Below are positions 14,626-27,652 of a stretch of 37,655 bases of DNA, in pieces; the stretch's first letter is position 1, and every line of letters starts with the position of its first letter. The notes under the pieces were generated by a model. The model was not told the DNA's origin, made no database searches, and saw only the letters and a program-made list of their open reading frames with translations. A program made the translations under genes and the position numbers. Origin of the DNA: a virus; the IMG/VR virus record IMGVR_UViG_3300030109_002360, positions 1 through 37,655 of that record; one strand, 5' to 3'.

Positions 14626-15027
14626 TTTAGCATAAAATTTACAGGAGGTAGTACTACATAGCTACGCAGACAGTAACAACTAAGAAGCACCCCCCCCACA
14701 GCCACCACGACCACCACAGCCACAGCCACAGCCACCTGTCGCCACCACCACCACCACCCGTCACCACCCCCACCCCACCCCACCGTTTGCGTTTTTTTTC
14801 GGCGAAATAATGTGATATGGTCGATTTTAAGGGGTCTCAGGGTCTCATAGACGGGCTTTCGGGGCTTGGGGGTTTCCGTGCCTTATCGTGCCTTACGTTC
14901 TCTCACGTTCCCATTTTGTTATTTAGAATGTTTTTGAGAATGTCCCTGACCTGTTTGGAATAGTTCTGAAAAATTGGGAATGTTGTCCTTATTGAGTTTG
15001 GAATGTCTTACGGCGTTTTATATAGCG
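14626..15027. other. Gene-free G/C-tract and iteron region between terminase genes (candidate packaging or origin site)
   Basis: I find no convincing gene here. From 14690 to 14784 the plus strand is almost all C and A (a C8 run at 14690-14697, CCACCA and CAGCCA repeats), so the minus strand carries G4 T G4 T G5 tracts that could form a G-quadruplex. From 14831 to 14873 the plus strand is G-rich instead (runs of 4, 3, 3, 4 and 5 G). Further right, CGTGCCTTA occurs twice (from about 14876) and GAATGT four times (14926, 14938, 14978, 15001). The composition is unlike the rest of the window. Terminase recognition or a replication origin is inferred from position and repeats. Confidence 0.6.
14690..14784 (-). 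repeat. G-rich low-complexity tract with G-quadruplex potential
   Basis: Read on the minus strand, the tract starts GGTGGGGTGGGGTGGGGG, then GGTGAC, GGG and many GGT or GGCTGT units, ending in a G8 run. At least four runs of three or more G lie within 25 bases, with loops of 1, 1 and about 7, which satisfies the usual G-quadruplex rule. Homopolymer length here may be an assembly or sequencing uncertainty. Confidence 0.75.
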
Positions 15028-15036
15028 TTACGCCGT
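15010..15036 (-). terminator. Hairpin overlapping the terminase small subunit stop
   Basis: ACGGCGT (15010-15016) pairs perfectly with ACGCCGT (15030-15036) around a 13-base AT-rich loop. The stop codon of the small terminase gene (15028-15030) lies at the edge of the right-hand arm. No T-run follows in the minus direction, so an mRNA 3'-end or attenuator role is likelier than a strong terminator. It could also be part of a protein-binding site in the adjacent gap. Confidence 0.5.
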
Positions 15037-15546
15037 GTCCTCTATTGGCTTTTTATCTTCTGAAATTGGCACATTTATATTTATTAAAGCTTGGATTAGG
15101 GCATTTGCTTGGTCGTCAATTGTCGTCTGGTTCTTGTTATCTCCGTATCTGTCGGGGTATTTTTTAGACAGCAGCCACTGGCTATTTTTACTCTTAACAG
15201 CCTCATTCTCAGCAGTCGTTAATTCCGTTAATTGCATAGCCTCAAACTCAGTAACAGCCTCAGTAACAGTATCATGTAATTTCAGTGTCAGTTGCTTGTA
15301 TCTGTCACTAGGGTTCATATTCTTTGTATCTGTAACAGTAACAGTATCTATAGTATCTGTTTCAGTTTCTGTATCTAATGTAACTCGGACTTTTTCACCA
15401 AAACGGAGCCAACCCATTGCCACAGACTCAGAAACCCCACACCGTCTAATTATGGCACTTGTAGGGTGTAGCCCTAGCCGTTCTATATCCTGCTTAATTA
15501 AATCTATCTTTTTATTATCTAACTGTATTTTCCTGCTCATAGTCAT
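15028..15546 (-). CDS. terS: Terminase small subunit (DNA recognition)
   Basis: 172 residues. The N-terminal helix-turn-helix region (about 15-50: LGLHPTSAIIRRCGVSESVA) is followed by an odd Thr/Asp/Val linker (about 55-75), a helical oligomerisation segment, and the signature-like WLLSKKYPDRYG (about 123-134), seen near the centre of many small terminases. It is the first gene of the leftward late unit, lying upstream of terL across the G-rich gap. The start could be ATG 15546 or the next Met at 15540; neither has a strong Shine-Dalgarno site. The DNA site it binds may be in the neighbouring gap. Confidence 0.78.
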   Translation of the reverse strand: MTMSRKIQLDNKKIDLIKQDIERLGLHPTSAIIRRCGVSESVAMGWLRFGEKVRVTLDTETETDTIDTVTVTDTKNMNPSDRYKQLTLKLHDTVTEAVTEFEAMQLTELTTAENEAVKSKNSQWLLSKKYPDRYGDNKNQTTIDDQANALIQALININVPISEDKKPIEDTA

Positions 15547-15615
15547 TTACTATTTTATCAACTCTGTAATTATATTTAAATGAATGTGCCACATTATCCC
15601 TTTTTAAATTAATGC

Positions 15616-15646
15616 TTGACATATCATATTATAGTATGTTTATAAT
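15616..15646 (+). promoter_or_regulatory. Sigma70-like promoter for the early region
   Basis: A perfect -35 box TTGACA (15616-15621) and a perfect -10 box TATAAT (15641-15646) are separated by 19 bases, slightly longer than the 17 optimum. It lies between the divergent late and early units and would start transcription near 15653, just before the long gene-free leader. The same AT-rich stretch read on the minus strand contains another TATAAT (15628-15633), but with no good -35 partner. Use of the host RNA polymerase fits the absence of any phage polymerase gene. Confidence 0.75.
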
Positions 15647-15652
15647 AGATTG

Positions 15653-16390
15653 TGGTTGTTGTTGGTAGGTTGTTAGACCCTCAGGGACTAAGCAAACATA
15701 GAAGGCTTAGGAGTCAGGCTTGAACCCTGACAAGTGGGGGCAACATGAAACGGCAGGGGGGGGAAGTCATAGAAGCCGAGTAATTCGGTCAACTCAAATG
15801 AACTTCTAGACCTGATGTGAACGCAAACGTTTCCGAGTTGTTGAGGTACTGGAAATCTAAAAGGGAAGCTACAACATAGTTGAAAAATAGTTTCTACAGG
15901 TAGGTTCAAACTGGGGTGATGTGAACTGGTCACAGAAAAAAAGACTGTTGACCCTTGGGTCATTAGTTGAATACTCATCATCTCGGTTATGGAGGGCGTG
16001 GCATTGCCCTGCTGAGATAGTCCGAAGGATTTTTATTCAAGCAATACACAACTTCTACAAATTCTGTTGAATGAGAAAAGCAGTCTTATCAATGACTAAA
16101 AGTAAAATACAAAGCTACATTATTATTTAATCTGTTGAGGTTGTCTGGTCGTGTAGTGGTTGCTAGTTACAGAAAAAATGTTTATCCAAGGGTAATTATT
16201 TGATTATGTTTTCTAGCCTAGGTCTTTGAAAAAAATTACTAAGTGAACAACTGTGAAAGTCAGGAATGAAGCCGAAACTGTGGGTGGTGTATGGTTCCAA
16301 GTGGCAACCCTTGGATTAAATTCAAAGTTTAATAAACCGAAACGAAAGAACCCAAGACAATGCCAAGCGACCCTCCAAATTGTCGCTTGG
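15653..16390 (+). ncRNA. Large structured leader RNA, about 740 nt
   Basis: No convincing gene exists between the promoter and 16436, but the DNA is dense in local inverted repeats. These include CTAAGC/GCTTAG (15688-15710), GTCAGG/CCTGAC (15713-15731), TGACCC/GGGTCA (15949-15962), ATCTC...GAGAT enclosing AGGGC/GCCCT (about 15979-16017), TCCAAG/CTTGGA (about 16296-16314) and a terminal 9-bp CCAAGCGAC/GTCGCTTGG (16363-16390). GGACTA (15685-15690) could also pair at long range with TAGTCC (16018-16023). Size, structure and phage context recall the large ornate RNAs GOLLD and ROOL, but I cannot show membership. A very long regulatory leader is the alternative. Confidence 0.6.
15928..15970 (+). 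repeat. Internal repeat of the leader RNA, copy 1
   Basis: The segment reads gGTCACAGAAAAAAAG, then CCTTGGGTCATTAGTTGA. A diverged copy lies at about 16166-16203 with GTTACAGAAAAAATG, then CCAAGGGTAATTATTTGA. The shared order of an A-run, a CCTTGG/CCAAGG core and an ATTA-TTGA end suggests a duplicated RNA structural module. Confidence 0.5.
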
Positions 16391-16404
16391 TTTCGTCTTA
16401 GTAA
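16363..16404 (+). promoter_or_regulatory. Hairpin plus CGTCTTAGTAA motif, cassette boundary 1
   Basis: A 9-bp stem CCAAGCGAC (16363-16371)/GTCGCTTGG (16382-16390) ends the leader RNA. The first copy of the repeated motif CGTNTTAGTAA follows at 16394-16404, and then a Shine-Dalgarno site (TAGGAGGA) before the first early gene. This is the first of the repeated boundary units described at 16394-22460. Confidence 0.75.
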
Positions 16405-16435
16405 TAAATTAATTCATAATTAGGAGGATAATATT

Positions 16436-16654
16436 ATGAAAGTTGACATTTCAACACTTAACAAACTGCCAAAATACAAAGAAAACCTTTTAGTGTCTGA
16501 TGATTACATTTTCAGTTACTTAACAAAGGTTGCAGTTATTGACCACGAAAAAAGAGAAATTCTAGTTGATACTTGGTTTTCTTCTACAACTTCAAAGCAT
16601 ATAAATTATGTTGGTCAGGAATACAATTACAAAGTTGTGAAATTGTATCAGTAA
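16436..16654 (+). CDS. First early-cassette protein, unknown
   Basis: 72 residues (MKVDISTLNKLPKYKENLLV...). It looks like a small alpha/beta protein with strands such as KVAVIDHEKREILVDTWF and YNYKVVKLYQ. The start has a strong Shine-Dalgarno site (TAGGAGGATAATATT before ATG) and lies 31 bases after a CGTCTTAGTAA motif. As the first gene after the main promoter it is probably expressed very early. Host takeover or anti-defence roles are common for such genes, but nothing in the sequence shows one. Confidence 0.75.
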   Translation: MKVDISTLNKLPKYKENLLVSDDYIFSYLTKVAVIDHEKREILVDTWFSSTTSKHINYVGQEYNYKVVKLYQ

Positions 16655-16659
16655 TCGGA

Positions 16660-16698
16660 GGGGGGCAATCAAGCCCCCCCCTTCAATCGTATTAGTAA
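16660..16698 (+). promoter_or_regulatory. Hairpin plus CGTATTAGTAA motif, cassette boundary 2
   Basis: GGGGGGC (16660-16666) and GCCCCCC (16673-16679) form a perfect 7-bp G-C stem around AATCAA, a few bases after the stop of the first early gene. The motif copy lies at 16688-16698. The 20-base hairpin is identical to the one at 16921-16940. Confidence 0.85.
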
Positions 16699-16726
16699 AA
16701 ATAATCATGATAAGGAGGAATTAATC

Positions 16727-16915
16727 ATGAAAAAACATTACCTAATCAAGCAAACTCATGTTAGTTATCAGTCAGCTTATGCCTCATCAAAAGCAGAAGC
16801 ATTAGAAGAAGTTAAAAATAATAGCGAAGACTTTGGAGATACTGTTTTTAATTCAAATTGGTATTTAATGGATATAAAACATAGCTTTGTTAGAAAAATA
16901 AAGAAAAAAGTTTAA
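16727..16915 (+). CDS. Small DpnD/PcfM-like early protein
   Basis: 62 residues, MKKHYLIKQTHVSYQSAYASS, then KAEALEEVK. The pattern of two short strands, then A-S-S/K-EA and a helix resembles the small DpnD/PcfM-type domain and matches the proteins at 18272 and 23635. The C-terminal end is basic (RKIKKKV). It is a single-gene cassette with a strong AAGGAGGA site after a CGTATTAGTAA motif. The molecular function of this domain is unknown to me; the family call is by eye. Confidence 0.7.
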   Translation: MKKHYLIKQTHVSYQSAYASSKAEALEEVKNNSEDFGDTVFNSNWYLMDIKHSFVRKIKKKV

Positions 16916-16920
16916 TTGGT

Positions 16921-16961
16921 GGGGGGCAATCAAGCCCCCCAACCCAACCTCGTTTTAGTAA
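16921..16961 (+). promoter_or_regulatory. Hairpin plus CGTTTTAGTAA motif, cassette boundary 3
   Basis: The hairpin GGGGGGCAATCAAGCCCCCC (16921-16940) has exactly the same 20 bases as the previous boundary and lies a few bases beyond the stop of the 62-residue gene. The motif is at 16951-16961, and AAGGAGG follows before the 27-residue ORF. Confidence 0.85.
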
Positions 16962-16979
16962 TCAATCAAGGAGGTTAAA

Positions 16980-17063
16980 ATGATTGAAGTGTCTATTAAT
17001 GATACAGGAAATATAGTAGTTACAGATAATTCTATAATTTCAATCTTAAAAGAGCAGGGTTGA
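16980..17063 (+). CDS. 27-residue early microprotein
   Basis: ATG 16980 follows a strong AAGGAGG site and the standard CGTTTTAGTAA motif, and the TGA stop (17061-17063) lies in the loop of the next cassette hairpin. The product is MIEVSINDTGNIVVTDNSII followed by SILKEQG, which suggests a short beta-hairpin and a helix. Full cassette signals on both sides make translation likely despite the length. Alternatively it is a remnant of a longer gene. No function can be assigned. Confidence 0.65.
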   Translation: MIEVSINDTGNIVVTDNSIISILKEQG

Positions 17064-17083
17064 TGACCCTGCCGTCTTAGTAA
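17054..17083 (+). promoter_or_regulatory. Hairpin plus CGTCTTAGTAA motif, cassette boundary 4
   Basis: GCAGGGT (17054-17060) pairs with ACCCTGC (17066-17072) around TGATG. The TGA in that loop is the stop codon of the 27-residue gene. The motif follows immediately at 17073-17083. Confidence 0.82.
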
Positions 17084-17112
17084 AAAATAATCATGATAAG
17101 GAGGATTTAATC

Positions 17113-17472
17113 ATGGAAACAGAAATCACAATCAAACCAACTCTTAACGACTTTGGAACTAGTTTAATTGGTCATGTAAAAATATCCTATGACAAATTAG
17201 TTTCAGTGTTTGGTAAAGAACACAGTGGTGGTTCAATGGATAACAAAACCCTTGCTAGTTGGTCAATTGAATTTCCTGACAAAACAGTTGCTACAATTTA
17301 CAACTGGAAAAACGGAAAGAATTACGACCCAGTTGATGGTTTAGATAAAGAAAATATTGATATGTGGCATATCGGAGGCAAAGATGAAAAAGCATTTCAC
17401 TACATAAGACTTTTATTGTGGGGTAAAGCTAACGCATCAGGCTTAGGATATCCACCACCATTATACCTATAA
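17113..17472 (+). CDS. Conserved-type early phage protein, unknown
   Basis: 119 residues. The central part, LASWSIEFPDKTVATIYNWK followed by NGKNYDP, and the later DMWHIGGKDEKAFHYI resemble a protein type common in phages and plasmids, whose function I do not know. The fold looks like a small antiparallel beta-sheet with a C-terminal helix. It is a single-gene cassette with AAGGAGGA before the start and a hairpin just after the stop. An early regulatory or anti-host role is possible but not shown. Confidence 0.75.
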   Translation: METEITIKPTLNDFGTSLIGHVKISYDKLVSVFGKEHSGGSMDNKTLASWSIEFPDKTVATIYNWKNGKNYDPVDGLDKENIDMWHIGGKDEKAFHYIRLLLWGKANASGLGYPPPLYL

Positions 17473-17475
17473 TAT

Positions 17476-17509
17476 GAGGGGCAAAAATGCCCCTCAATCG
17501 TTTTAGTAA
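17476..17509 (+). promoter_or_regulatory. Hairpin plus CGTTTTAGTAA motif, cassette boundary 5
   Basis: GAGGGGC (17476-17482) pairs with GCCCCTC (17489-17495) around AAAAAT, four bases past the stop of the 119-residue gene. The motif is at 17499-17509. Confidence 0.85.
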
Positions 17510-17536
17510 AAACAATTATTCATAGAGGAGGATATT

Positions 17537-17938
17537 ATGGATAAAGTAATTAGAAACCAAAGACTCGGTGAAGCTGTAGCAATTGGCATTGAAAACGGTT
17601 GCATTGAAGATATGTTATTTATTTTTGATGACGATGGATTTGTTACTGACACTGACAAAATGGCTTGGGAATACAACGACTTTGAAGACGCTTATACAGA
17701 TGAGCAAGGCGACACAATGCAAGAAGCATGGGCTAATGGAATTAGAGTTAACAACTATTGTAACTCAAAACAAAATTACTCAAATAATTACAAATTCAAA
17801 GGTGACATAAAAATTTATGGCTCAGAGTTTGGAACATCAGGCATTCATGAAATCTCTACAGTTTCTTTGAAGACTGAGAAACCAGACACCCCAGACGTTG
17901 ACACAATCGAAGAGGTAAACAATCCAGAGCAGGGCTAA
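17537..17938 (+). CDS. Acidic early protein, unknown
   Basis: 133 residues with a low predicted pI. The first half holds many Asp/Glu (DMLFIFDDDGFVTDTDKMAW, NDFEDAYTDEQGD), the middle is Asn/Tyr/Lys-rich, and the tail is a disordered Pro/Asp/Glu segment. It begins after GAGGAGGATATT and a CGTTTTAGTAA motif, and its TAA stop (17936-17938) is inside the following hairpin loop. Such acidic proteins can mimic DNA, but no specific evidence supports that here. Confidence 0.72.
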   Translation: MDKVIRNQRLGEAVAIGIENGCIEDMLFIFDDDGFVTDTDKMAWEYNDFEDAYTDEQGDTMQEAWANGIRVNNYCNSKQNYSNNYKFKGDIKIYGSEFGTSGIHEISTVSLKTEKPDTPDVDTIEEVNNPEQG

Positions 17939-17972
17939 GCCCCTGCTCGGTTGCTAGGTATCGTTTTAGTAA
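17927..17972 (+). promoter_or_regulatory. Hairpin plus CGTTTTAGTAA motif, cassette boundary 6
   Basis: GAGCAGGG (17927-17934) pairs with CCCTGCTC (17941-17948). The loop CTAAGC contains the TAA stop of the acidic protein gene, so the left arm is coding sequence. The motif follows at 17962-17972. Confidence 0.82.
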
Positions 17973-18000
17973 TAAATAAATTATTCATATAGGAGGAATA

Positions 18001-18213
18001 ATGAAAATTAATATAGAAAATAGAAAAGTTTTTGTTGGTGAAGATGGTAAAGAAATACCTTGGGAACTTTATAAAAAACTAAAACTTTTTATAGCTTGTA
18101 TTAAAAATGCAAATTTGTTTGGTGCAAATACAGAAATCTCTGACCAAACTTGTTTACGAATTATAGAATTTATACAGGATAAACCTTGGGAAAAAGACCC
18201 ATACATATTATGA
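18001..18213 (+). CDS. Small early protein, unknown
   Basis: 70 residues, MKINIENRKVFVGEDGKEIP followed by WELYKKLKLF. A short beta-hairpin is followed by helices, with two Cys (IACIKNANLF, QTCLRIIEF). The start follows TAGGAGGAATA and a motif at 17962. The TGA stop overlaps the left arm of the next hairpin. It is the only gene in its cassette. No family recognised. Confidence 0.72.
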   Translation: MKINIENRKVFVGEDGKEIPWELYKKLKLFIACIKNANLFGANTEISDQTCLRIIEFIQDKPWEKDPYIL

Positions 18214-18250
18214 GGGGCAATCATGCCCCTCCACTGTATCGTTTTAGTAA
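18212..18250 (+). promoter_or_regulatory. Hairpin plus CGTTTTAGTAA motif, cassette boundary 7
   Basis: GAGGGGC (18212-18218) pairs with GCCCCTC (18225-18231) around AATCAT. The first two bases of the stem are part of the TGA stop of the 70-residue gene. The motif lies at 18240-18250. Confidence 0.85.
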
Positions 18251-18271
18251 TAAAAAAGTATTAGGAGGATT

Positions 18272-18508
18272 ATGAATACTTATAGTTTAACAATTGGTCA
18301 TGTTTGTTATTACGATATTGAAATAACTGCATTATCAATTGAGGAAGCAAAAGCAAAAGCAATTGAATGGGACTTTGAATTCAGTTCAATGGATGACGAG
18401 AAAGTCAACAGTGCTAACGGATGTGCCGTTGTGCAAGTGATTGAAGAAGAAGGTAAACCAGACAGACTCATTATGCTACAAGAACCCAAAGTATTGGAGC
18501 AAAAATGA
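18272..18508 (+). CDS. Small DpnD/PcfM-like early protein
   Basis: 78 residues. MNTYSLTIGHVCYYDIEITA then LSIEEAKAKAI gives two strands and an A-x-S-x-E-E-A helix like the proteins at 16727 and 23635. The end is acidic (VQVIEEEGKPDRLIMLQEPK). It starts after TTAGGAGGATT and a motif, and its TGA overlaps the next start (ATGA), so this cassette holds two coupled genes. Function unknown; kinship with DpnD/PcfM-type domains is a judgement by eye. Confidence 0.72.
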   Translation: MNTYSLTIGHVCYYDIEITALSIEEAKAKAIEWDFEFSSMDDEKVNSANGCAVVQVIEEEGKPDRLIMLQEPKVLEQK

Positions 18509-18795
18509 GTAAAGAATACGAAGTATCGATTGTCTTTGGCAACAGCAAAGAAGCAAGTGTAAACAGGACTTTCAAGACACAAAGAGAAATGGAAGCATAT
18601 TTCTGTGCCTTGTTAGACATGGAAGGTTGGCTTGATTACAACTATGTTGAGGATGGCATTGATGGTTGGGTCTATCAATCAGATGGTACATGGAAACAAG
18701 AAAACGAAGAGTACACGATTGAAACTTACAACCAAAAATCACCAGAGTATTACAAGCAATTTGCAAAAGGGGAGAATGACCAAGAGCAGGAGTAA
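18505..18795 (+). CDS. Small acidic early protein, unknown
   Basis: 96 residues, MSKEYEVSIVFGNSKEASVN followed by RTFKTQREMEAYFCALLDME. The strand-strand-helix order at the N-terminus may be a distant relative of the preceding gene. Trp, Tyr and Asp are frequent in the second half. The start overlaps the preceding stop by four bases, implying translational coupling. The TAA stop lies in the loop of the following 9-bp hairpin. Confidence 0.72.
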   Translation: MSKEYEVSIVFGNSKEASVNRTFKTQREMEAYFCALLDMEGWLDYNYVEDGIDGWVYQSDGTWKQENEEYTIETYNQKSPEYYKQFAKGENDQEQE

Positions 18796-18822
18796 ATCTC
18801 CTGCTCGATATCGTTTTAGTAA
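18784..18822 (+). promoter_or_regulatory. Hairpin plus CGTTTTAGTAA motif, cassette boundary 8
   Basis: A perfect 9-bp stem GAGCAGGAG (18784-18792)/CTCCTGCTC (18798-18806) has the five-base loop TAAAT, whose TAA is the stop of the 96-residue gene. The motif follows at 18812-18822. Confidence 0.87.
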
Positions 18823-18845
18823 TTAATAGATTTCAAGGAGGAACA

Positions 18846-19346
18846 ATGCAAAAGAAATCAATCAAAGAAATTCAAGAAACTTACACAAAAAGTATACTTG
18901 AATTGGTGGATAAACTAGAAAAAAAGAATAGTGAAATCACTAAACTTAAAGCAAAAACTGAGGAGATAGAGTTTTTAAAAGATAGAGTAACATCTTTAAA
19001 AAATCTAAAAGGCTTGGATTTTTCTTGGGTGGCTATCTGGGAAGAGTCGCAAGTTTATGGTGGTGCTGAAGAAGGTGGATGGTACTTTAACCATGACTCA
19101 TTAACAGGATTGCCATTTCAAATCCCTGACGATTTAACAACAGTCGTTAAAAAATGGTTTGAAAAAGTTTATGGAAACTCAGAAATGAAAGATGTTGTGA
19201 TGAGTGATGAAGCATACCAAAGAGAGATAGAAATGTATGGAGATTTGTTAGAGCCATTGAGAGGTGAAGTAAGTGCCTCTGGTAAATTCAAATTAACATT
19301 TCATAAAGAATATCCACAAGAAGCACCTTACCCTGTTTATGAATAG
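18846..19346 (+). CDS. Early protein with N-terminal coiled coil
   Basis: 166 residues. About residues 5-55 form a charged coiled coil (SILELVDKLEKKNSEITKLK, EIEFLKDRVTSLKNL). The rest is globular, with WVAIWEESQVYGGAEEGGWY, which resembles a segment of small uncharacterised phage or plasmid proteins, and helices with MKDVVMSDEAYQREIEM. It starts after CAAGGAGGAACA in a cassette of its own. Oligomerisation through the coiled coil is likely; the function is unknown. Confidence 0.75.
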   Translation: MQKKSIKEIQETYTKSILELVDKLEKKNSEITKLKAKTEEIEFLKDRVTSLKNLKGLDFSWVAIWEESQVYGGAEEGGWYFNHDSLTGLPFQIPDDLTTVVKKWFEKVYGNSEMKDVVMSDEAYQREIEMYGDLLEPLRGEVSASGKFKLTFHKEYPQEAPYPVYE

Positions 19347-19372
19347 GGTAGGGACTATATTCGTTTTAGTAA
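19329..19372 (+). promoter_or_regulatory. Hairpin plus CGTTTTAGTAA motif, cassette boundary 9
   Basis: TACCCT (19329-19334) pairs with AGGGTA (19345-19350) around a 10-base segment that reaches the TAG stop (19344-19346) of the coiled-coil gene. This stem is weaker than its neighbours. The motif is at 19362-19372. Confidence 0.7.
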
Positions 19373-19396
19373 AACAATCCATAAAGGAGGTAAATT

Positions 19397-19681
19397 ATGG
19401 ATGTAAGAAGAATTGATTTCTTCATGTTGGGATTTATCCTAACAAGGTTAGCAGTAACACTTGAATTACAAGCACACGCAGGTTGGCACGATGTTGACCC
19501 TGAGTTTCGTAAAACTCTAAGCAAAGCAGTTGACACAGCTTTAGACTGGCATCATGTTATGTTAGATAAACAAAATCGTGGCGAGTTTGCAATGTCGATA
19601 ATTTCTGCACAACCATCTTCATTCTTTGAAGTACCATTGGGTGATAATGGTGAACTGAATGTTCAAAGCAGGAAACCATAG
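19397..19681 (+). CDS. Small helical early protein, unknown
   Basis: 94 residues. It starts MDVRRIDFFMLGFILTRLAV, mildly hydrophobic but probably amphipathic, followed by ELQAHAGWHDVDPEFRKTLS and LDWHHVMLDKQNRGEFAMS. It is probably mainly helical with several His residues. The start follows AAAGGAGGTAAATT after a motif. The TAG stop lies within the left arm of the next hairpin. No family recognised. Confidence 0.72.
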   Translation: MDVRRIDFFMLGFILTRLAVTLELQAHAGWHDVDPEFRKTLSKAVDTALDWHHVMLDKQNRGEFAMSIISAQPSSFFEVPLGDNGELNVQSRKP

Positions 19682-19712
19682 AGGGGGTAACTCCCCTCTA
19701 TCGTCTTAGTAA
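19678..19712 (+). promoter_or_regulatory. Hairpin plus CGTCTTAGTAA motif, cassette boundary 10
   Basis: ATAGAGGGG (19678-19686) pairs with CCCCTCTAT (19693-19701) around GTAACT; the left arm contains the TAG stop of the 94-residue gene. The motif begins one base later, at 19702-19712. Confidence 0.85.
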
Positions 19713-19734
19713 TAAATAAGTATAAGGAACAAAA

Positions 19735-19851
19735 GTGAAACTTAAAGTAAAAAATAAAGAAGTTTTGATGGGTTATTGTTTGATGAAAAATTGTTTGCTA
19801 AAAGCTACACGAGGTAGTTTTTGTAAGCTTCATGGTAAAAAATCGTCTTAG
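19735..19851 (+). CDS. 38-residue zinc-ribbon-like microprotein
   Basis: A GTG start (19735) follows TAAGGAAC and a CGTCTTAGTAA motif. The product contains GYCLMKNCLLKATRGSFCKL followed by HGKK, a C-x4-C-x9-C-x2-H pattern suited to one zinc ion. The TAG stop (19849-19851) is supplied by the next CGTCTTAGTAA motif itself, and there is no hairpin at this boundary. The cassette signals and the metal-binding pattern support a real gene. Its function is unknown. Confidence 0.68.
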   Translation: MKLKVKNKEVLMGYCLMKNCLLKATRGSFCKLHGKKSS

Positions 19852-19854
19852 TAA
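19844..19854 (+). promoter_or_regulatory. CGTCTTAGTAA motif without hairpin, cassette boundary 11
   Basis: This copy lacks the usual upstream hairpin and overlaps the end of the zinc-ribbon microprotein gene, whose last codons and TAG stop are read from the motif. AAGGAGGTAAA and a GTG start follow 15-25 bases downstream. Confidence 0.75.
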
Positions 19855-19879
19855 TAAACAATGTTTGCAAGGAGGTAAA

Positions 19880-20038
19880 GTGGCAAATGTTAAAAGAAAA
19901 TTGGAAGAGATACAACAAGTCTCAGAAGAGGTTGATAATTTCAATCTTATCAGTCTCATCAATACTCGTGGTGTTGTATGGGTTCAAGAAAAAATAGATG
20001 AACTCAACAAGCAACTCAAGGAGGGTAATGATGAGTAA
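19880..20038 (+). CDS. 52-residue helical early protein
   Basis: I choose GTG 19880 because AAGGAGGTAAA lies directly before it; an upstream ATG in frame would start inside the preceding gene. The product (VANVKRKLEEIQQVSEEVDN, then LISLINTRGVVWVQEKIDEL) is helical and charged, possibly a coiled coil. Its end overlaps the start of the next gene, so the two are probably coupled. No family recognised. Confidence 0.7.
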   Translation: MANVKRKLEEIQQVSEEVDNFNLISLINTRGVVWVQEKIDELNKQLKEGNDE

Positions 20039-20318
20039 AACATACAAACTTGAAGAGTATCAACAACAGACTAGGCACTATGAGATTGTTTCAAACATTC
20101 CATTACCTAAAGGAATACTAGAAGAAGTATTTTACTGGGGAGATGGTGATGATTTGGGTCAAGGTCAGGAGACTGACATGACTAGCTGTGCATGGATTGA
20201 AATCAAGAAAGACGAAACTCTTGATGATAAAGACTATGAAGGTCTTAAGGTAAAACTTCAATTCATCAAGTCAGGTGCAGGAGACTTTGCTGAACTTGAC
20301 ATAGAGGAGGTGGAGTAA
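20031..20318 (+). CDS. Small acidic early protein, unknown
   Basis: The start at ATG 20031 (MSKTYKLEEYQQQTRHYEIV) is favoured over ATG 20028 because its distance from AAGGAGGG is better. The 95-residue product is acidic, with DDLGQGQETDMTSCAWIEIK and a final DIEEVE. The frame overlaps the previous gene by eight bases, and its TAA shares a base with the next ATG (TAATG). A three-gene coupled cassette is therefore likely. Function unknown. Confidence 0.72.
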   Translation: MSKTYKLEEYQQQTRHYEIVSNIPLPKGILEEVFYWGDGDDLGQGQETDMTSCAWIEIKKDETLDDKDYEGLKVKLQFIKSGAGDFAELDIEEVE

Positions 20319-20491
20319 TGAGTGAAGAACTATATGTCCTGTACTGCATACAGTGTGGTGCTGAGGGAGATGAAGATGAGATAAGTAACGATGATTGGTG
20401 GTGGGTAACTCATGGCGATGTGATGTGTTGGAGATGTGAAAGAAGTTTATCCAAAGATAAAAGACAAAAAATAGAATTAGAATATTCATAA
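20318..20491 (+). CDS. 57-residue zinc-ribbon early protein
   Basis: ATG 20318 overlaps the previous stop, with GAGGAGG just upstream. The protein has two Cys pairs, YCIQCGAEG near the start and MCWRCERS near the end. This C-x2-C...C-x2-C arrangement is typical of a zinc ribbon, with a Trp-rich acidic linker (DDWWWVTHGD) between. It may bind nucleic acid or protein partners. It is the last gene of its cassette and is followed at once by an 8-bp hairpin. Confidence 0.75.
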   Translation: MSEELYVLYCIQCGAEGDEDEISNDDWWWVTHGDVMCWRCERSLSKDKRQKIELEYS

Positions 20492-20494
20492 AGA

Positions 20495-20532
20495 GAGGAG
20501 GCTTAAACGCCTCCTCAATATCGTTTTAGTAG
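20495..20532 (+). promoter_or_regulatory. Hairpin plus CGTTTTAGTAG motif, cassette boundary 12
   Basis: GAGGAGGC (20495-20502) pairs with GCCTCCTC (20509-20516) around TTAAAC. The motif at 20522-20532 ends in TAG instead of TAA and runs into AGAGGGCATA, which is the reverse complement of a segment just after the next gene. Confidence 0.85.
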
Positions 20533-20540
20533 AGGGCATA
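20531..20540 (+). repeat. 10-bp inverted repeat flanking the GHKL ATPase gene, left arm
   Basis: AGAGGGCATA here is the exact reverse complement of TATGCCCTCT at 21771-21780. The arms lie in the 5' and 3' untranslated parts of the same gene, about 1.23 kb apart. They could pair in the mRNA or could be short inverted ends of a transferred module; chance cannot be excluded. Confidence 0.6.
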
Positions 20541-20555
20541 ATTAAGGAGGAAATT

Positions 20556-21758
20556 ATGACTAAGAAAGTTGTAAGCAGTATTAAATCTGCATTTGAAGTA
20601 GACATCAAAGGACTCAAAGAACTATTTGGTTCTGTCCCTGCATGGAGACACGCAGTTGAACTAGTGACCAATGTGTTCGATGAATTCTTGGGCTACGTTG
20701 AAGGTGCTGTATCGCCAACCTCTTGTATTGTAGAACTTACAAAGGATGGCAACAGACCTGCACAACTTAAGGTGCAAGATGACGGTGGTGGTTTCAAAGA
20801 CCCAACCGACATCTATACTCTCTTCAGGACTACTGAAAAGAGAAACGACCCTACTGTTGCAGGTAGGTTCAATGCAGGTGAGAAACAACTCATTGCTGTT
20901 TCAAAGGAAGCTGTGATTAAGACTAGGAATTACACCGTTAGTTTCAAAGATGGTGTGAGGAATACGACTAAACACAAAGACCCTAACTACCACCAAGGCA
21001 CAACGGTTGAGGCTGTACTACCTATGGTGAAGGGAGACTTTGAAACTGCTGTGGAAATGCTGAGTAATGTAATACCACCAGAAGGCATAAGTTATGTCGT
21101 CAATGGTGAGATTATTCCAAGACCTCAGTCAAAGCACGGTGTTGAAGTAACAATGCCAACTCCAGTCTTGCAAGAGATTGATGGTATCAACGCAATGAAA
21201 AACCTACAAAGGAAAACAAAGGTGGAAATCTTTGAAGCAGAAACACCATGGCTTTATGAACTAGGTATTCCAGTGATGACCCTTGAAGATACTCAATTCA
21301 AGTATTCTTTGAATGTTCATCAGAAGATACCTTTGTCCATGAGCAGAGACTTGGTGGCTAGAAACTACATCATGAAATTGATTGGTCTAGTCAACGAGGC
21401 ATCTGCATTGGATGGTGTGATGCTTGTTGATGAGGAAGACCAAGGTGCTAATTTTGAGAAAGAAAGTATGTCCTACATCAAGGATGTAAATGCTCTTTCC
21501 AAGATACACACTTCGGTAAGACCTAACTCAATGTTGTGGTCATCTAACGCAAGTGCAAACATACAAGCACAGATGGATGGCAACGACATTGTTCAACGAG
21601 GCACTTACGATGGACCAACTTTAAAAAGATTGATGGATAGTAATATTGCTCAATCAACTAACGTTGCTTATCCAAACTTTGTGCCACCACAAGTTACACA
21701 ACAATCTGAACCAAACGTGGTGCAGTCATGCCCACAGTGTGGTTTTAGACTTAACTAA
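20556..21758 (+). CDS. GHKL-superfamily ATPase with C-terminal zinc ribbon
   Basis: 400 residues, much longer than the surrounding cassette genes. The GHKL ATP-binding motifs are visible: N box ELVTNVFDE (Glu35, Asn39, Asp42), G1 DDGGG (75-79), and G2 GRFNAGEK (103-110) followed by a helix. This is the arrangement of Hsp90, MutL and type IIB topoisomerase N-domains. The final residues carry CPQC (392-395), half of a zinc ribbon. A strong AAGGAGGAAATT precedes the start. ATP-driven conformational change on nucleic acid or a partner protein is likely; the exact role is unknown. Confidence 0.8.
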   Translation: MTKKVVSSIKSAFEVDIKGLKELFGSVPAWRHAVELVTNVFDEFLGYVEGAVSPTSCIVELTKDGNRPAQLKVQDDGGGFKDPTDIYTLFRTTEKRNDPTVAGRFNAGEKQLIAVSKEAVIKTRNYTVSFKDGVRNTTKHKDPNYHQGTTVEAVLPMVKGDFETAVEMLSNVIPPEGISYVVNGEIIPRPQSKHGVEVTMPTPVLQEIDGINAMKNLQRKTKVEIFEAETPWLYELGIPVMTLEDTQFKYSLNVHQKIPLSMSRDLVARNYIMKLIGLVNEASALDGVMLVDEEDQGANFEKESMSYIKDVNALSKIHTSVRPNSMLWSSNASANIQAQMDGNDIVQRGTYDGPTLKRLMDSNIAQSTNVAYPNFVPPQVTQQSEPNVVQSCPQCGFRLN

Positions 21759-21770
21759 ATAACTATCAAC

Positions 21771-21793
21771 TATGCCCTCTACCGTATTAGTAA
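21771..21793 (+). promoter_or_regulatory. CGTATTAGTAA motif with right arm of the gene-flanking inverted repeat
   Basis: No local hairpin follows the GHKL gene. Instead TATGCCCTCT (21771-21780) is the exact complement of AGAGGGCATA (20531-20540) at the other end of that gene. The motif follows at 21783-21793, then the next start with a weaker site (TAGGAGTC). Confidence 0.7.
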
Positions 21794-21818
21794 CAACAAG
21801 TCATAGGAGTCTATCAAA

Positions 21819-22040
21819 ATGACGAAAAAAGATTACATACTAATTGCAGCTATGCTGAAAAATGAAAGAAAGAAAGCATTGTCTGACCAAGATTACACTA
21901 GCAAAGTAAAAAACATTCTAATTACTAGTATTGCTAGACAATTATCAGATATGTTTGGTGCAAATAATCCAAGATTTGACAAGACTAAATTTGTTAAAGC
22001 TACAAACTTAACAGAAGAGGAAATGAAGTTGCCACTATGA
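21819..22040 (+). CDS. Small early protein, possibly interrupted by a TGA
   Basis: 73 residues (MTKKDYILIAAMLKNERKKA...), helical, with RQLSDMFGANNPRFDKTKFV resembling small phage proteins that pair with host or replication factors. After the TGA (22038-22040) the same frame continues for 19 sense codons, EDLIEKAAEFSIDVDEFKD, to a TAA at 22098-22100. That extension looks like normal coding sequence. The gene may have a recent nonsense mutation, a readthrough stop or simply a diverged end. Confidence 0.68.
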   Translation: MTKKDYILIAAMLKNERKKALSDQDYTSKVKNILITSIARQLSDMFGANNPRFDKTKFVKATNLTEEEMKLPL

Positions 22041-22100
22041 GAAGACCTCATTGAGAAAGCTGCTGAGTTTAGTATTGACGTAGATGAGTTCAAAGATTAA
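22041..22100 (+). pseudogene. In-frame extension beyond a TGA stop
   Basis: This is the 19-codon continuation of the preceding gene, with a helical and acidic composition matching that gene's C-terminal half. It has no start codon of its own in frame and no Shine-Dalgarno site. Readthrough or a nonsense mutation would explain it. Confidence 0.4.
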
Positions 22101-22164
22101 TATGAATTTGTGACTTTCTAGTCAACCTCAACCAAGACATTGCATTAAATAGAACTTTTGCAAA

Positions 22165-22199
22165 ACGGTGACCTGTAACAGGGTCACCGTGTCTTTTTA
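22165..22199 (+). terminator. Rho-independent terminator
   Basis: A perfect 9-bp stem ACGGTGACC (22165-22173)/GGTCACCGT (22182-22190) is followed by GTCTTTTTAG. This is the best classical terminator in the early unit and lies after the interrupted gene. The T-rich end (TCTTTTTAG) looks like a variant of the cassette motif, hinting that the motif may derive from terminator tails. Confidence 0.8.
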
Positions 22200-22209
22200 G
22201 GAAACAATT

Positions 22210-22434
22210 ATGAAACAAGTATTTATTTATAAAACACAGGAGATTGTAACTCTGGTATCACAGAACCCAGAGGCAAGAAGTTTTATAGCAAATAATGTTG
22301 ATAAGAAACAATGGGCTTACAAGGACCCCAGTGATATTCACAACTCACCAATCATTGTGAACCCTGATTTCTACATACCAATCATTGGCATTCTCAAGAC
22401 TAACAATTTTGATGTTGCAGTGAATGGTAAATAA
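22210..22434 (+). CDS. Small early protein, unknown
   Basis: 74 residues, MKQVFIYKTQEIVTLVSQNP. It looks alpha/beta with PSDIHNSPIIVNPDFYIPII and a Val/Ala end. The Shine-Dalgarno site is weak (TTAGGAAACAATT), unlike other cassette genes, and the gene lies directly after a strong terminator. It may therefore be expressed from read-through or a separate start. No family recognised. Confidence 0.65.
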   Translation: MKQVFIYKTQEIVTLVSQNPEARSFIANNVDKKQWAYKDPSDIHNSPIIVNPDFYIPIIGILKTNNFDVAVNGK

Positions 22435-22449
22435 GAGTATAGTAAAAAA

Positions 22450-22460
22450 CGTTTTAGTAA
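22450..22460 (+). promoter_or_regulatory. CGTTTTAGTAA motif without hairpin, last typical copy
   Basis: This is the fourteenth and last standard copy. It lies between the 74- and 182-residue genes with no clear hairpin upstream. An AAAGGAG site follows before ATG 22486. Confidence 0.75.
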
Positions 22461-22485
22461 ATAATAATCAGTTAAAGGAGTAAAT

Positions 22486-23034
22486 ATGACAACTGAGAAC
22501 ACGCCTAATCCTTACGCTAACGAGAATGACACTATTGAATTGTCAGTATCTGAGATGAAAGGACAACGGGCAATCTACTTACCAGTAGAAGTAACTGTAA
22601 AAATGCAGGGTAAATACAATGTTAAAGACAGACCGTTTAAACAAGTAATTCTTGAAGAGGTAAATGGGTTCTGGAACCCACCTCATGAACTGTTTGCAGG
22701 AGCCAAAGGTATTGCTCTTCTTTCTATCAATAAGATAGCATCAGGAACACTTTACTGGGACATCCAGTCATGGGAACCAGTTGACGGTGGACAAGTAGTA
22801 GCACCTACTGAAAAAGTATCCGTACCTGTTGCCTCATCAGGTGGCAGTGTGGATGGCAGGAACAGGTCTATAGAAAGACAGGTTGCTGTGAAAGCCCTGA
22901 TTGAACTAGCACCTCATTGTGAGGGATTAGTATCAGCAGGTTTCATGAAAGGTGAAACTGCAGCCAGAGTAGTTAGGAAAGCAGTATTAGGTGCTGAAGA
23001 ACTACTTGGAGAACTGAGTGAAGACAATGGATAA
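22486..23034 (+). CDS. Early protein, possibly nucleic-acid related, unknown
   Basis: 182 residues. The N-terminal half is beta-rich (DTIELSVSEMKGQRAIYLPV, EVTVKMQGKYNVKDRPFKQ). A Gly/Ser linker (SSGGSVDGRNRSIERQ, about 120-135) leads to a helical C-terminal part ending in acidic residues (LLGELSEDNG). A beta domain, flexible linker and acidic tip recall single-stranded DNA-binding proteins, and the gene sits just before the replication genes. That reading is speculative. Confidence 0.72.
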   Translation: MTTENTPNPYANENDTIELSVSEMKGQRAIYLPVEVTVKMQGKYNVKDRPFKQVILEEVNGFWNPPHELFAGAKGIALLSINKIASGTLYWDIQSWEPVDGGQVVAPTEKVSVPVASSGGSVDGRNRSIERQVAVKALIELAPHCEGLVSAGFMKGETAARVVRKAVLGAEELLGELSEDNG

Positions 23035-23230
23035 AATGCTTTACACAGTCCTTGAGGCTAAAGAAATGATGGGTATAGGTAGAAACAGACTTTATGACTT
23101 GATAAAAGAAAACAAGATAAAGTCAATCAAGGTCGGTACTCACATCAAGATTACTAAGGAGTCTATCGATGACTTCATGAGTAGACTTGAAGATGCCGGC
23201 TCTATCGAAAACCTACAACCAATTAATTAA
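23018..23230 (+). CDS. Excisionase-family helix-turn-helix DNA-binding protein
   Basis: 70 residues. YTVLEAKEMMGIGRNRLYDL then IKENKIKSIKVGTHIKITKE is the classic excisionase/MerR-type winged HTH pattern: a helix, a recognition helix with a Tyr-x-x-Ile pair, then a beta wing. The start may be GTG 23018, six bases after GGAG, or ATG 23027 or 23036. It overlaps the previous gene. No integrase is present, so a regulatory or replication-origin binding role is likelier than excision. Confidence 0.82.
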   Translation: MKTMDKMLYTVLEAKEMMGIGRNRLYDLIKENKIKSIKVGTHIKITKESIDDFMSRLEDAGSIENLQPIN

Positions 23231-23236
23231 TTTAAT

Positions 23237-23312
23237 CGGGCACAGGTTCCTCCAAGAAAACGATAAGGTAAATCTCCGGTAGAGATGATAGCATCCCTTA
23301 TTCCTGTGTCCG
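23237..23312 (+). ncRNA. 76-nt structured RNA element with anti-Shine-Dalgarno-like bulge
   Basis: CGGGCACAGG (23237-23246) pairs with CCTGTGTCCG (23303-23312) with one G-U pair. Inside, ATAAGG (23263-23268) pairs with CCTTAT (23296-23301) and ATCTC (23272-23276) with GAGAT (23282-23286). The 5' bulge contains TTCCTCC (23247-23253), complementary to an AAGGAGG-type ribosome site. It lies in the gene-free 142 bases after the HTH gene and is followed by CGTTTACTAAGTAA, similar to the cassette motif. It may be a cis-acting switch or a small RNA; it lacks tRNA features. Confidence 0.6.
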
Positions 23313-23372: not shown

Positions 23373-23618
23373 GTGAACAACATTCAAACATTTTTAAAAG
23401 AGATGAAAGTGATTGTAGATTTTGCTATCAAGTACAGTAAGGCGTTAAATCATAACGAAATACCCGAAACTGAAATTGAAAAAGTAAGAGATGCAGTTGA
23501 GTCTCTCGATAATATGTGGGGCGAGGAACGCTTGCAATCTGCTTTAGATGCAATGCAAGATGAACAAGCTGACATAAAAAGTATTGTCGAAGATATGCTT
23601 GAAGAAATAAACGATTAA
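23373..23618 (+). CDS. Small helical acidic protein, unknown
   Basis: 81 residues from a GTG start that follows AAAGGAGTTAAAC. It is helical and acidic throughout (NIQTFLKEMKVIVDFAIKYS, DAMQDEQADIKSIVEDMLEE). The next gene also begins with GTG after a very similar leader (AAAGGAGCAAAAC). No family recognised; small acidic phage proteins of this type are often partners of larger enzymes. Confidence 0.72.
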   Translation: MNNIQTFLKEMKVIVDFAIKYSKALNHNEIPETEIEKVRDAVESLDNMWGEERLQSALDAMQDEQADIKSIVEDMLEEIND

Positions 23619-27268: not shown

Positions 27269-27652
27269 ATGAAAAATAGCGTATGGAAAAACTGGGAGAG
27301 AAGATGGGCTGAGTTTTTTGGTGGTGATGCAGTTAATGCACAAAGAAATCCAGTGACAGGAAGACACTCTGGTGACGTTCCTGATGTAGAAACTATTAAG
27401 TTTTGCCTTGAAGTCAAGGCAGGTAAGGTTGTGTCTAGCAGAACACTTAAGGCTGTAGACCAAGCTAGGAAAGCTGCCAATGCTACAGGAAAGATACCTG
27501 TAGTATGCCAAACACATAAAAAGAACGAACAAGTAGCCGTGCATTTGGTGACAATGGAACTAGATGTATTCTTAGACCTTACAAAACATATTAGAAAAGA
27601 AGAGATGCGAATCAAGAAAAGTCTTGACTCAAGCAAAGAGTTAGGTATTTAA
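27269..27652 (+). CDS. Holliday-junction-resolvase-like PD-(D/E)XK nuclease
   Basis: 127 residues. WERRWAEFFGG, RNPVTGRHSGDVPDV (Asp36, Asp39), CLEVKAG (Glu48, Lys50) and a downstream KAVDQARKAA helix follow the order of small resolvase/VRR-type nucleases: a conserved acidic N-helix, an Asp, then E-x-K. A CAAGGAGGAAC site precedes the start, and the AT-rich 85 bases upstream might hold a weak promoter. It is the last plus-strand gene; its stop overlaps that of the convergent minus-strand gene by three bases or so. Confidence 0.75.
   Translation: MKNSVWKNWERRWAEFFGGDAVNAQRNPVTGRHSGDVPDVETIKFCLEVKAGKVVSSRTLKAVDQARKAANATGKIPVVCQTHKKNEQVAVHLVTMELDVFLDLTKHIRKEEMRIKKSLDSSKELGI

Follow-up and report, generated by a model that had tools for sequence, protein, structure and literature searches.

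The DNA analysed here, called the window throughout, is a phage sequence of 37,655 nt that makes up the whole of IMG/VR record IMGVR_UViG_3300030109_002360, for which completeness is not given. It encodes a terminase, a capsid-like protein, a DnaC-like protein and a PD-(D/E)XK exonuclease, and it holds an array of mostly small genes, presumably early ones, between which a composite element recurs. The element consists of a GC-rich hairpin and an 11-nt motif, followed by the ribosome-binding site of the next gene. It is under constraint, and in related phages the genes between the elements are exchanged as cassettes with the joint inside the motif. We tentatively propose that this element punctuates a polycistronic transcript at the RNA level and also serves as the joint at which cassettes are exchanged.

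The pattern CGTNTTAGTAA is matched exactly 13 times in the window, always on the + strand and within 16394-22460; 0.05 matches would be expected, and no more than one was found in any of 100 shuffles. A 14th copy at 20522 reads CGTTTTAGTAG, with G as its final letter. The reversed pattern, used as a control, had no match in any of 17 records, the window included. Among 113 distinct copies, position 4 is T in 58%, C in 32% and A in 11% and is never G, as the initial annotation had claimed for the window; position 11 is A or G, and a weaker TAT lies ahead of the motif and an A-rich stretch after it. Positions 2, 3 and 6-10 are invariant among the copies but are fixed by the selecting pattern, and their constancy was tested separately. 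A looser scan of 16 arrays, which allowed up to 2 mismatches and asked for a ribosome-binding site and a start codon downstream, gave 18 extra sites. Only two of them, at 18139 and 23231 in the relative G010, are element-like with a hairpin of their own; the other 16 are G010 19186 (with a stem, just after an accepted copy), one repeated copy in G005 and 14 sites without a stem. The two G010 variants were missed by the array-copy pattern, G010 23640 was left out of the array copies (no ribosome-binding site within 50 nt), and G010 24964 and 28256 lie outside the array.

From the end of the motif to the start codon there are 13-34 nt, with a median of 25 (162 copies in the window and 15 relatives), so that the spacing of 20-40 bases first given for most copies is about right. 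The further claim that all 14 copies lie between genes fails once, at 19844, where the motif contains the stop codon of the preceding gene. Within the window exact copies are restricted to the array, and genes just past it (at 23373 and 23635, for example) have ribosome-binding sites that no motif precedes. These counts support the initial view of a phage-specific element under strong constraint; among the matches listed, arrays were seen only in this phage group.

A GC-rich hairpin precedes 11 of the 14 motifs in the window. Under a rule that asks for at least 6 pairs, at least 4 of them G-C, 106 of the 116 distinct copies (window plus 15 relatives) have a stem upstream, whereas 11% of random positions in the arrays have one; the hairpin ends 0-13 nt before the motif. 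Two-sided compensatory changes between relatives were found in the hairpins of the leader and of cassettes B, F, G, N and S (in N and S alongside broken pairs), and this covariation indicates that the hairpin is selected as a structure. Many of the hairpins fall into a few families common to unrelated cassettes, one family occurring in ten cassette types and another in nine. The spacers, initially described as differing, are to that extent alike. Of 139 scored copies, 77 have the upstream gene's stop codon within the stem-loop, 54 have it ahead of the stem-loop and 8 beyond it; these counts, like those of stem pairs given below, retain one false junction label (leader-C in the truncated record G002). 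One hairpin type has a translated 5' arm, as at window positions 17054, 17927 and 18784 (two of the three by eye), and this makes unrelated proteins end in EQG or EQE.

The hairpins are not followed directly by a T-run, and the motif itself holds at most TTTT. An intrinsic terminator with the motif as its T-run was ruled out by the variable distance between the two, in keeping with the initial annotation, which had also denied a usual intrinsic terminator. Under a looser rule, 17475-17496, 18784-18806 and 20495-20516 do count as terminator-like. A known RNA family was rejected for the elements and for the leader, since neither had an Rfam match at gathering; the weak matches at E up to 5 or 10 (up to 10 for the leader) lie below their gathering scores. 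The features of the array are collected in Table 1.

Table 1. Promoter, leader, hairpins, motifs and selected genes of the array, in window coordinates.
Feature	Position	Strand	Remark
sigma70-like promoter TTGACA-19-TATAAT	15616..15646	+	sole 12/12 match on + strand; spacer 19, usual 17
non-coding leader, ~740 nt, start approximate	15655..16393	+	alignment of 16 leaders
hairpin of element 1, leader end	16362..16391	+	G-C to A-T compensatory change between relatives
motif 1 CGTCTTAGTAA	16394..16404	+	pattern match
hairpin of element 2	16657..16684	+	
motif 2 CGTATTAGTAA	16688..16698	+	pattern match
hairpin of element 3	16920..16941	+	
motif 3 CGTTTTAGTAA	16951..16961	+	pattern match
27-amino-acid gene MIEVSINDTGNIVVTDNSIISILKEQG (cassette A)	16980..17063	+	stop codon in loop of next hairpin; cassette type in 11 arrays
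hairpin of element 4	17054..17072	+	
motif 4 CGTCTTAGTAA	17073..17083	+	pattern match
hairpin of element 5	17475..17496	+	
motif 5 CGTTTTAGTAA	17499..17509	+	pattern match
hairpin of element 6	17927..17948	+	
motif 6 CGTTTTAGTAA	17962..17972	+	pattern match
hairpin of element 7	18212..18231	+	
motif 7 CGTTTTAGTAA	18240..18250	+	pattern match
hairpin of element 8	18784..18806	+	
motif 8 CGTTTTAGTAA	18812..18822	+	pattern match
hairpin of element 9	19326..19353	+	
motif 9 CGTTTTAGTAA	19362..19372	+	pattern match
hairpin of element 10	19678..19701	+	
motif 10 CGTCTTAGTAA	19702..19712	+	pattern match
motif 11 CGTCTTAGTAA, no GC hairpin	19844..19854	+	its TAG is the stop of the 38-codon gene 19735-19851
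hairpin of element 12	20495..20516	+	
motif 12 CGTTTTAGTAG	20522..20532	+	final G travels with downstream gene
400-amino-acid gene (cassette C)	20556..21758	+	in relative G007 with own sigma70-like promoter, without motif
motif 13 CGTATTAGTAA	21783..21793	+	no GC hairpin in window
motif 14 CGTTTTAGTAA	22450..22460	+	no GC hairpin; ahead of last array gene 22486-23034

A protein search with the 400-amino-acid gene together with a pattern scan led to 16 related records. When these were searched for the motif, as the initial annotation had recommended, 15 of the 16 carried it, on a single strand in each. The arrays of the window and these 15 records were cut at the motifs and the pieces clustered into cassette types; for the rotated record G005 we removed the end copy that occurs twice and assumed the cassette spanning the join to be I. 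Altogether 45 cassette types were obtained, 25 of them present in at least two arrays, and 20 of these 25 have more than one left or right neighbour. The 162 junction instances represent 81 junction types, and no type occurs twice within one array. Of the 162 pairs that share two or more arrays, 7 occur in both orders; G003, for instance, has J R M and G006 has M R J. The gross order is thus mostly kept. By this comparison of arrays, cassettes are gained, lost or reordered among the relatives. Cassette J (L072 2082-3152), which encodes a DUF932 protein, is present in at least 8 arrays and not in the window.

The exchange can be located by comparing junctions that share one partner. When two junctions have the same upstream and different downstream cassettes, identity is raised up to the motif and drops towards the background after it, and the reverse case gives the mirror image (the pairs behind these profiles are not independent and include the false leader-C junction of G002). 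In a stricter set of 128 same-upstream, 113 same-downstream and 5712 background pairs, which are not independent as several records are near-identical, the respective agreement was 0.98, 0.84 and 0.80 at position 1 of the motif, 0.80, 0.59 and 0.42 at position 4, and 0.87, 1.00 and 0.89 at position 11. Position 1 and largely position 4 thus go with the upstream cassette and position 11 with the downstream one, and therefore the exchange falls mostly between positions 4 and 11. Identity with one cassette thus gives way to identity with the next within the motif, for the most part in TTAGTA. In array-to-array BLAST, which left out G002 and G011, 348 of 737 block ends lie at most 10 nt from a motif (124 of 283 in a reduced set), compared with 6.9% at random. 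The motif is also retained at junctions that hardly change, such as I-D, and shuffling alone therefore does not maintain it. Between the two genes of cassette I (window 22165-22205), the letters GTCTTTTTAGG of the window correspond in G009 (L083 14868) to a hairpin and GTCTTAGTAA, which points to a motif lost or not yet gained in the window.

Two relatives extend the range of the signal. G010 has a terminase that is 90% identical and a last array gene that is 37-39% identical. Of its 14 array copies, 10 have A at position 1, 3 have C and one has T, so that most copies have changed alike. L100, with a terminase 88% identical, carries TGTCTTAGTAA after the leader hairpin. Another TGTCTTAGTAA copy on the reverse strand of L100 (10439), upstream of the leader promoter and thus outside the presumed early transcript, may be there by chance. 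More than 3 copies of GTNTTAGTAA per strand were not seen among the matches listed at 321 other loci, most of which come from pattern scanning of IMG/VR and GTDB contigs. A motif scan of genome_contigs gave at least 116 stretches, none of those listed with more than 2 copies, and scans with position 1 changed to A and to T yielded 41 and at least 120 stretches, respectively, and no new array among the matches listed. In the literature covered, which takes in few subscription papers, the motif letters were not found in a phage context (none of nine papers that contain one of four strings has a title about phages), a search by topic listed no account of the element, and the signal appears new.

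The record without the motif, G007, shares genes with the array. Its 30,393 bp hold no motif, and two of its genes match those of the window, the gene of cassette C at 89% nucleotide identity and the window's first gene, Z, at 87%. The homology of both genes extends from about the Shine-Dalgarno sequence to about the stop codon and leaves the motif and the array hairpins outside. In G007 the C gene is on its own, with a 12/12 promoter (TTGACA-16-TATAAT) ahead of it and, as judged by eye, a different hairpin after it. The early region of G007 (L084 1-1500 and L283 6300-10393) has sigma70-like sites of 10-11/12 at four places, and among the 20 repeat families listed for this record there is no comparable many-copy intergenic repeat. 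Relatives with the same genes and no motif had initially been named as what would refute a control element. G007 answers to this description in part, with two of the genes and no motif; as the genes occur without it, the motif belongs to the array and not to the genes.

Upstream of the first motif, at ~700-1000 nt, a TTGACA-led match of 10-12/12 is present in all seven arrays scanned (the window, G001, G003, G006, G008, G009 and G010); G004 is cut off before this place. In the leader alignment, the promoter place reads TTGACA in G011 and G013-G016 and TTGACT in G005 and G012. The promoter at 15616 would drive the leader and probably the array as well. Promoter and leader lie outside the coordinates first given, and the initial annotation mentions neither the leader promoter nor the hairpins, nor the exchange of cassettes at the motif. 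The 5' part of the leader is a mosaic, of which three or more versions were made out by eye in the relatives; its 3' part is conserved and has a predicted consensus fold that closes on the motif. The folding energy of 15640-16404 has a z of only -1.1 relative to 20 shuffles. Leader positions 16236-16243 read TTACTAAG, which is complementary to motif 1, and 11 of 16 leaders have TTACTAA at a distance of 169-172 nt ahead of the first motif's end, three more having the shorter TTACTA. Neither version is found at this place in G010 or L100, and pairing of the leader RNA with the motifs was therefore dropped as a general mechanism.

A possible reading of these observations, and the one we prefer, is that the element acts as RNA-level punctuation of a polycistronic transcript and doubles as an exchange joint, with a predicted cleavage or binding event at the motif and a hairpin that protects 3' ends. 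The early region would be one polycistronic transcription unit of interchangeable gene cassettes, started by the single sigma70 promoter and the long leader RNA. Each unit has an AT-rich 5' stretch, a Shine-Dalgarno sequence and one or more genes, in most cases with a GC hairpin at or across the stop codon, and GUNUUAGUA(A) joins one unit to the next. In the RNA the motif, lying between hairpin and ribosome-binding site, would be cleaved or bound by a protein. Cleavage would release the unit as a separate mRNA with its 3' end protected by the hairpin and its 5' end free for ribosomes, in line with the initial suggestion that each small early gene would be its own mRNA unit; with a cut after GU, the new 3' end would lie 3-16 nt beyond the hairpin, and 21-42 nt of leader would remain ahead of the start codon. 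Exchange would occur by ordinary short-homology (annealing) recombination, the motif being the main sequence common to unlike cassettes; the PD-(D/E)XK exonuclease and the failure to match three recombinase families in 5 records agree with this. A cassette joined at the motif would keep a complete joint on both sides, and therefore any order would work, which would explain how one 11-nt signal can be both functional punctuation and a shuffling joint.

The RNase E core is RN/WUU in single-stranded AU-rich RNA, according to the accessible part of the source (PMC5222698), and the sequence GU/NUU fits this core when N is U or A, that is, in 69% of the 113 copies. As RNase E would not demand the AGUA that follows, a more specific reader or a binding protein is the likelier partner. 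One might go further and propose a phage-specific punctuation code, in which an endoribonuclease or RNA-binding protein of host or phage cuts or marks the early transcript at every joint, and the signal is the point where whole gene units plug in, to be gained, lost or reordered with their expression intact. This stronger form is doubtful; under it, signal and reader would co-evolve, given the change of position 1 from C to A in 10 of the 14 copies of G010.

Several similar elements have been described in phages and haloviruses. The closest in anatomy are the promoter-early stem-loop (PeSL) elements of T4-type phages, reportedly the subject of work by Arbiol in 2010 and Comeau in 2014. For PeSL and for the motif of HGTV-1, a combination of regulation and shuffling has been proposed (PMC4503421, PMC3950731; statements on these and the following elements refer to the accessible parts of the sources). 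Like PeSL, the present element is a stem-loop with a conserved motif repeated between small, presumably early genes, with cassettes shuffled at the element. Unlike PeSL, which contains early promoters, it shows no excess of sigma70-like sites; the phages that carry it are not T4-type but records of ~37 kb with a terminase only remotely like those of known phages; and the exchange joint can be placed inside the 11-nt motif. Stem-loop, motif and shuffled junctions are thus shared with PeSL, and the sigma70 promoter and the T4-type genome are not.

The start-associated sequence (SAS) of cluster K mycobacteriophages is an asymmetric 13-bp repeat before many start codons, about half of its copies with an upstream inverted repeat; its orientation is single with rare exceptions, and its function is unsettled in the accessible text (PMC3203893, PMC11373665). 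SAS, GGGATAGGAGCCC, usually lies 3-9 bp from the start codon, and the ESAS repeats have a consensus in common and hold SigA-like boxes (same sources). The array element resembles both in the asymmetric repeat ahead of start codons, the upstream inverted repeat and the one orientation. It differs from them in its sequence, its distance of 13-34 nt from the start, its varying hairpins and the lack of SigA-like boxes that stand out. The intergenic repeats of halovirus HF2, conserved among relatives, are promoters by reporter test (PMC8707807), and the HGTV-1 motif is a TATA-like archaeal promoter (PMC3950731). Both are placed before many genes of one genome, as the present element is, but no promoter box is recognised in the latter. 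Because the promoter feature that defines PeSL and the HF2 repeats fails, we did not file the element under either.

Some observations weigh against the punctuation reading. The look-alikes just named, HF2 repeats, ESAS and PeSL, carry promoters and by analogy favour a promoter. The promoter of the C gene in G007 can be read as motif replacing promoter or as array supplying promoter. Most arrays have 1-3 further sigma70-like sites of 10-11/12 inside or nearby, such as G001 7626 (11/12) and window 19530 and 21976 (both 10/12), and extra internal promoters are therefore possible. By the stem rule, 10 of the 116 distinct copies lack a strong stem, although at G010 19496 the score overlooked an evident GC hairpin. 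The comparisons of stem pairs, not independent given the near-identical records, gave 875 unchanged, 59 broken, 32 one-sided and 31 two-sided cases, some of the broken pairs arising from comparison of non-homologous hairpins. About half of the BLAST block ends are not near a motif, and since these lie inside cassettes, exchange also happens elsewhere. RNase E specificity leaves the constant AGUA unexplained, as well as the 32% of copies with C at the N. Finally, we infer cleavage, binding and even co-transcription from sequence alone.

The alternative that survives best gives each cassette its own promoter and terminator in the manner of PeSL. The hairpin would end the upstream transcript and the motif would be a single-box promoter for the host polymerase with a factor made or modified by the phage, with transcription proposed to start about 5-10 nt downstream of the motif. 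Only the closest copies leave no room for a 5' untranslated region of this kind, and a hairpin accompanies most units. Precedents exist in HF2 (PMC8707807), in the SigA-like boxes of ESAS (PMC11373665) and in PeSL (PMC4503421), and the motif-less C gene of G007 has its own promoter. We nevertheless regard this alternative as unlikely. No -10 or -35 box rises above background at the elements, and the motif has no TAnnnT. Sigma70-like matches of 9/12 occur at 30 of 165 elements (including one repeated end copy of the rotated G005) against 26% of random array positions; single matches do occur, and a sigma70 promoter at each element was rejected, which bears out the initial statement that the motif is not a sigma70 box. 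No region 2 of a phage sigma factor was matched in 5 records (Sigma70_r2). A search for a single-subunit RNA polymerase had no match, but as no control genome gave one either, it carries no weight. The array hairpins lack T-runs, while the + strand gene block that ends at 27652 is followed by a run of eight T. A promoter is moreover already present upstream of the array.

Integron attC arrays are made of cassettes with a gene and a 3' hairpin, exchanged beside the hairpin and in a single orientation. The phage arrays resemble attC arrays, as these are generally known, in all three respects, and the motif with its hairpin might be a dedicated recombination joint, a site of site-specific or structure-guided exchange that is attC-like without a local integrase. 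The exchange inside the motif, the reordering, the hairpin directly beside the joint and the single orientation, with no reversed-pattern match, agree with this. Homology-dependent processes put the joint at shared sequence anyway, and its position therefore proves nothing. No Phage_integrase, Resolvase or Y1_Tnp domain (tyrosine and serine recombinases, Y1 transposase) was matched in 5 records, though all 14 control genomes matched for Phage_integrase; a phage-encoded recombinase was thus rejected, and a host enzyme might act instead. Unlike attC, the hairpins contain no complement of the motif seen paired within them, and the element has no match to the attC core as commonly given. Genes Z and C of G007 match only from about the Shine-Dalgarno sequence to the stop, so some transfer ignores the motif, and the motif persists where cassette order is constant. 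We judge a dedicated joint to be improbable.

A stoperator-like function is more improbable still. The motif would be an asymmetric binding site, oriented with transcription, for a phage repressor or a protein that blocks elongation. Like the stoperators of L5-like mycobacteriophages (PMC9283540, accessible part), it is asymmetric, intergenic, transcription-oriented and present in many copies. An HTH_17/Xis-like protein (23018) and a winged-helix protein (23829) are encoded just past the array, and A at position 1 in 10 of the 14 copies of G010 looks as if a partner had co-changed. Stoperators are however genome-wide and have no hairpin partner in the accessible description (PMC9283540), whereas exact copies in the window occur in the array only. 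The hairpin and the closeness to ribosome-binding sites would stay unexplained, and lysogeny is doubtful because no integrase was found in 5 records.

Just as hard to credit is a role in translation, in which the motif would serve the 5' untranslated region as an AU-rich standby site or enhancer that is kept clear by the hairpin and works through the ribosome or a host RNA-binding protein without cleavage: the distance to the start codon in the 162 copies, the AT-rich extension after the motif and the ARN-like triplets that continue from AGU-ARN (mean run 1.11 against 0.33 in shuffles) would suit it, but the triplet phase is unspecific (0.91 in the next phase, nearly as good, for which reason Hfq-type ARN repeats were rejected), the constant GT..TAGTA exceeds the needs of S1 or standby binding, and the genes at 23373 and 23635 do without the motif.

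INPHARED has no near DNA relative of window region 15000-23300, the terminase is 24-27% identical to the 12 matches listed, none of them T4-type, and no terminase relative was found in genome_contigs. The 400-amino-acid protein had no Pfam or PHROG match at the limits used and a single INPHARED relative, in a 485-kb uncultured phage, at 28.9% identity. The product of the last array gene may be a single-strand DNA-binding protein, judging from an OB-like strand order in an AlphaFold model of low confidence (pLDDT 61.5). With such a model and no Foldseek match at E 0.001, an assignment as an annealing or single-strand binding protein was rejected.

Phage early regions are thought to be the places of fastest turnover for counter-defence and takeover genes. 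How a new phage gene arrives already expressible is, to our knowledge, rarely visible. In these arrays the joint is legible to the base, from the hairpin of the upstream unit through the 11-nt signal to the ribosome-binding site of the downstream unit, and this in 81 natural junction types. The elements also provide a simple search key for cassette genes. As no promoter is recognisable in it, the element would either work in the RNA or use an unknown type of promoter. In both cases the answer would show how a modular phage region remains functional through shuffling.

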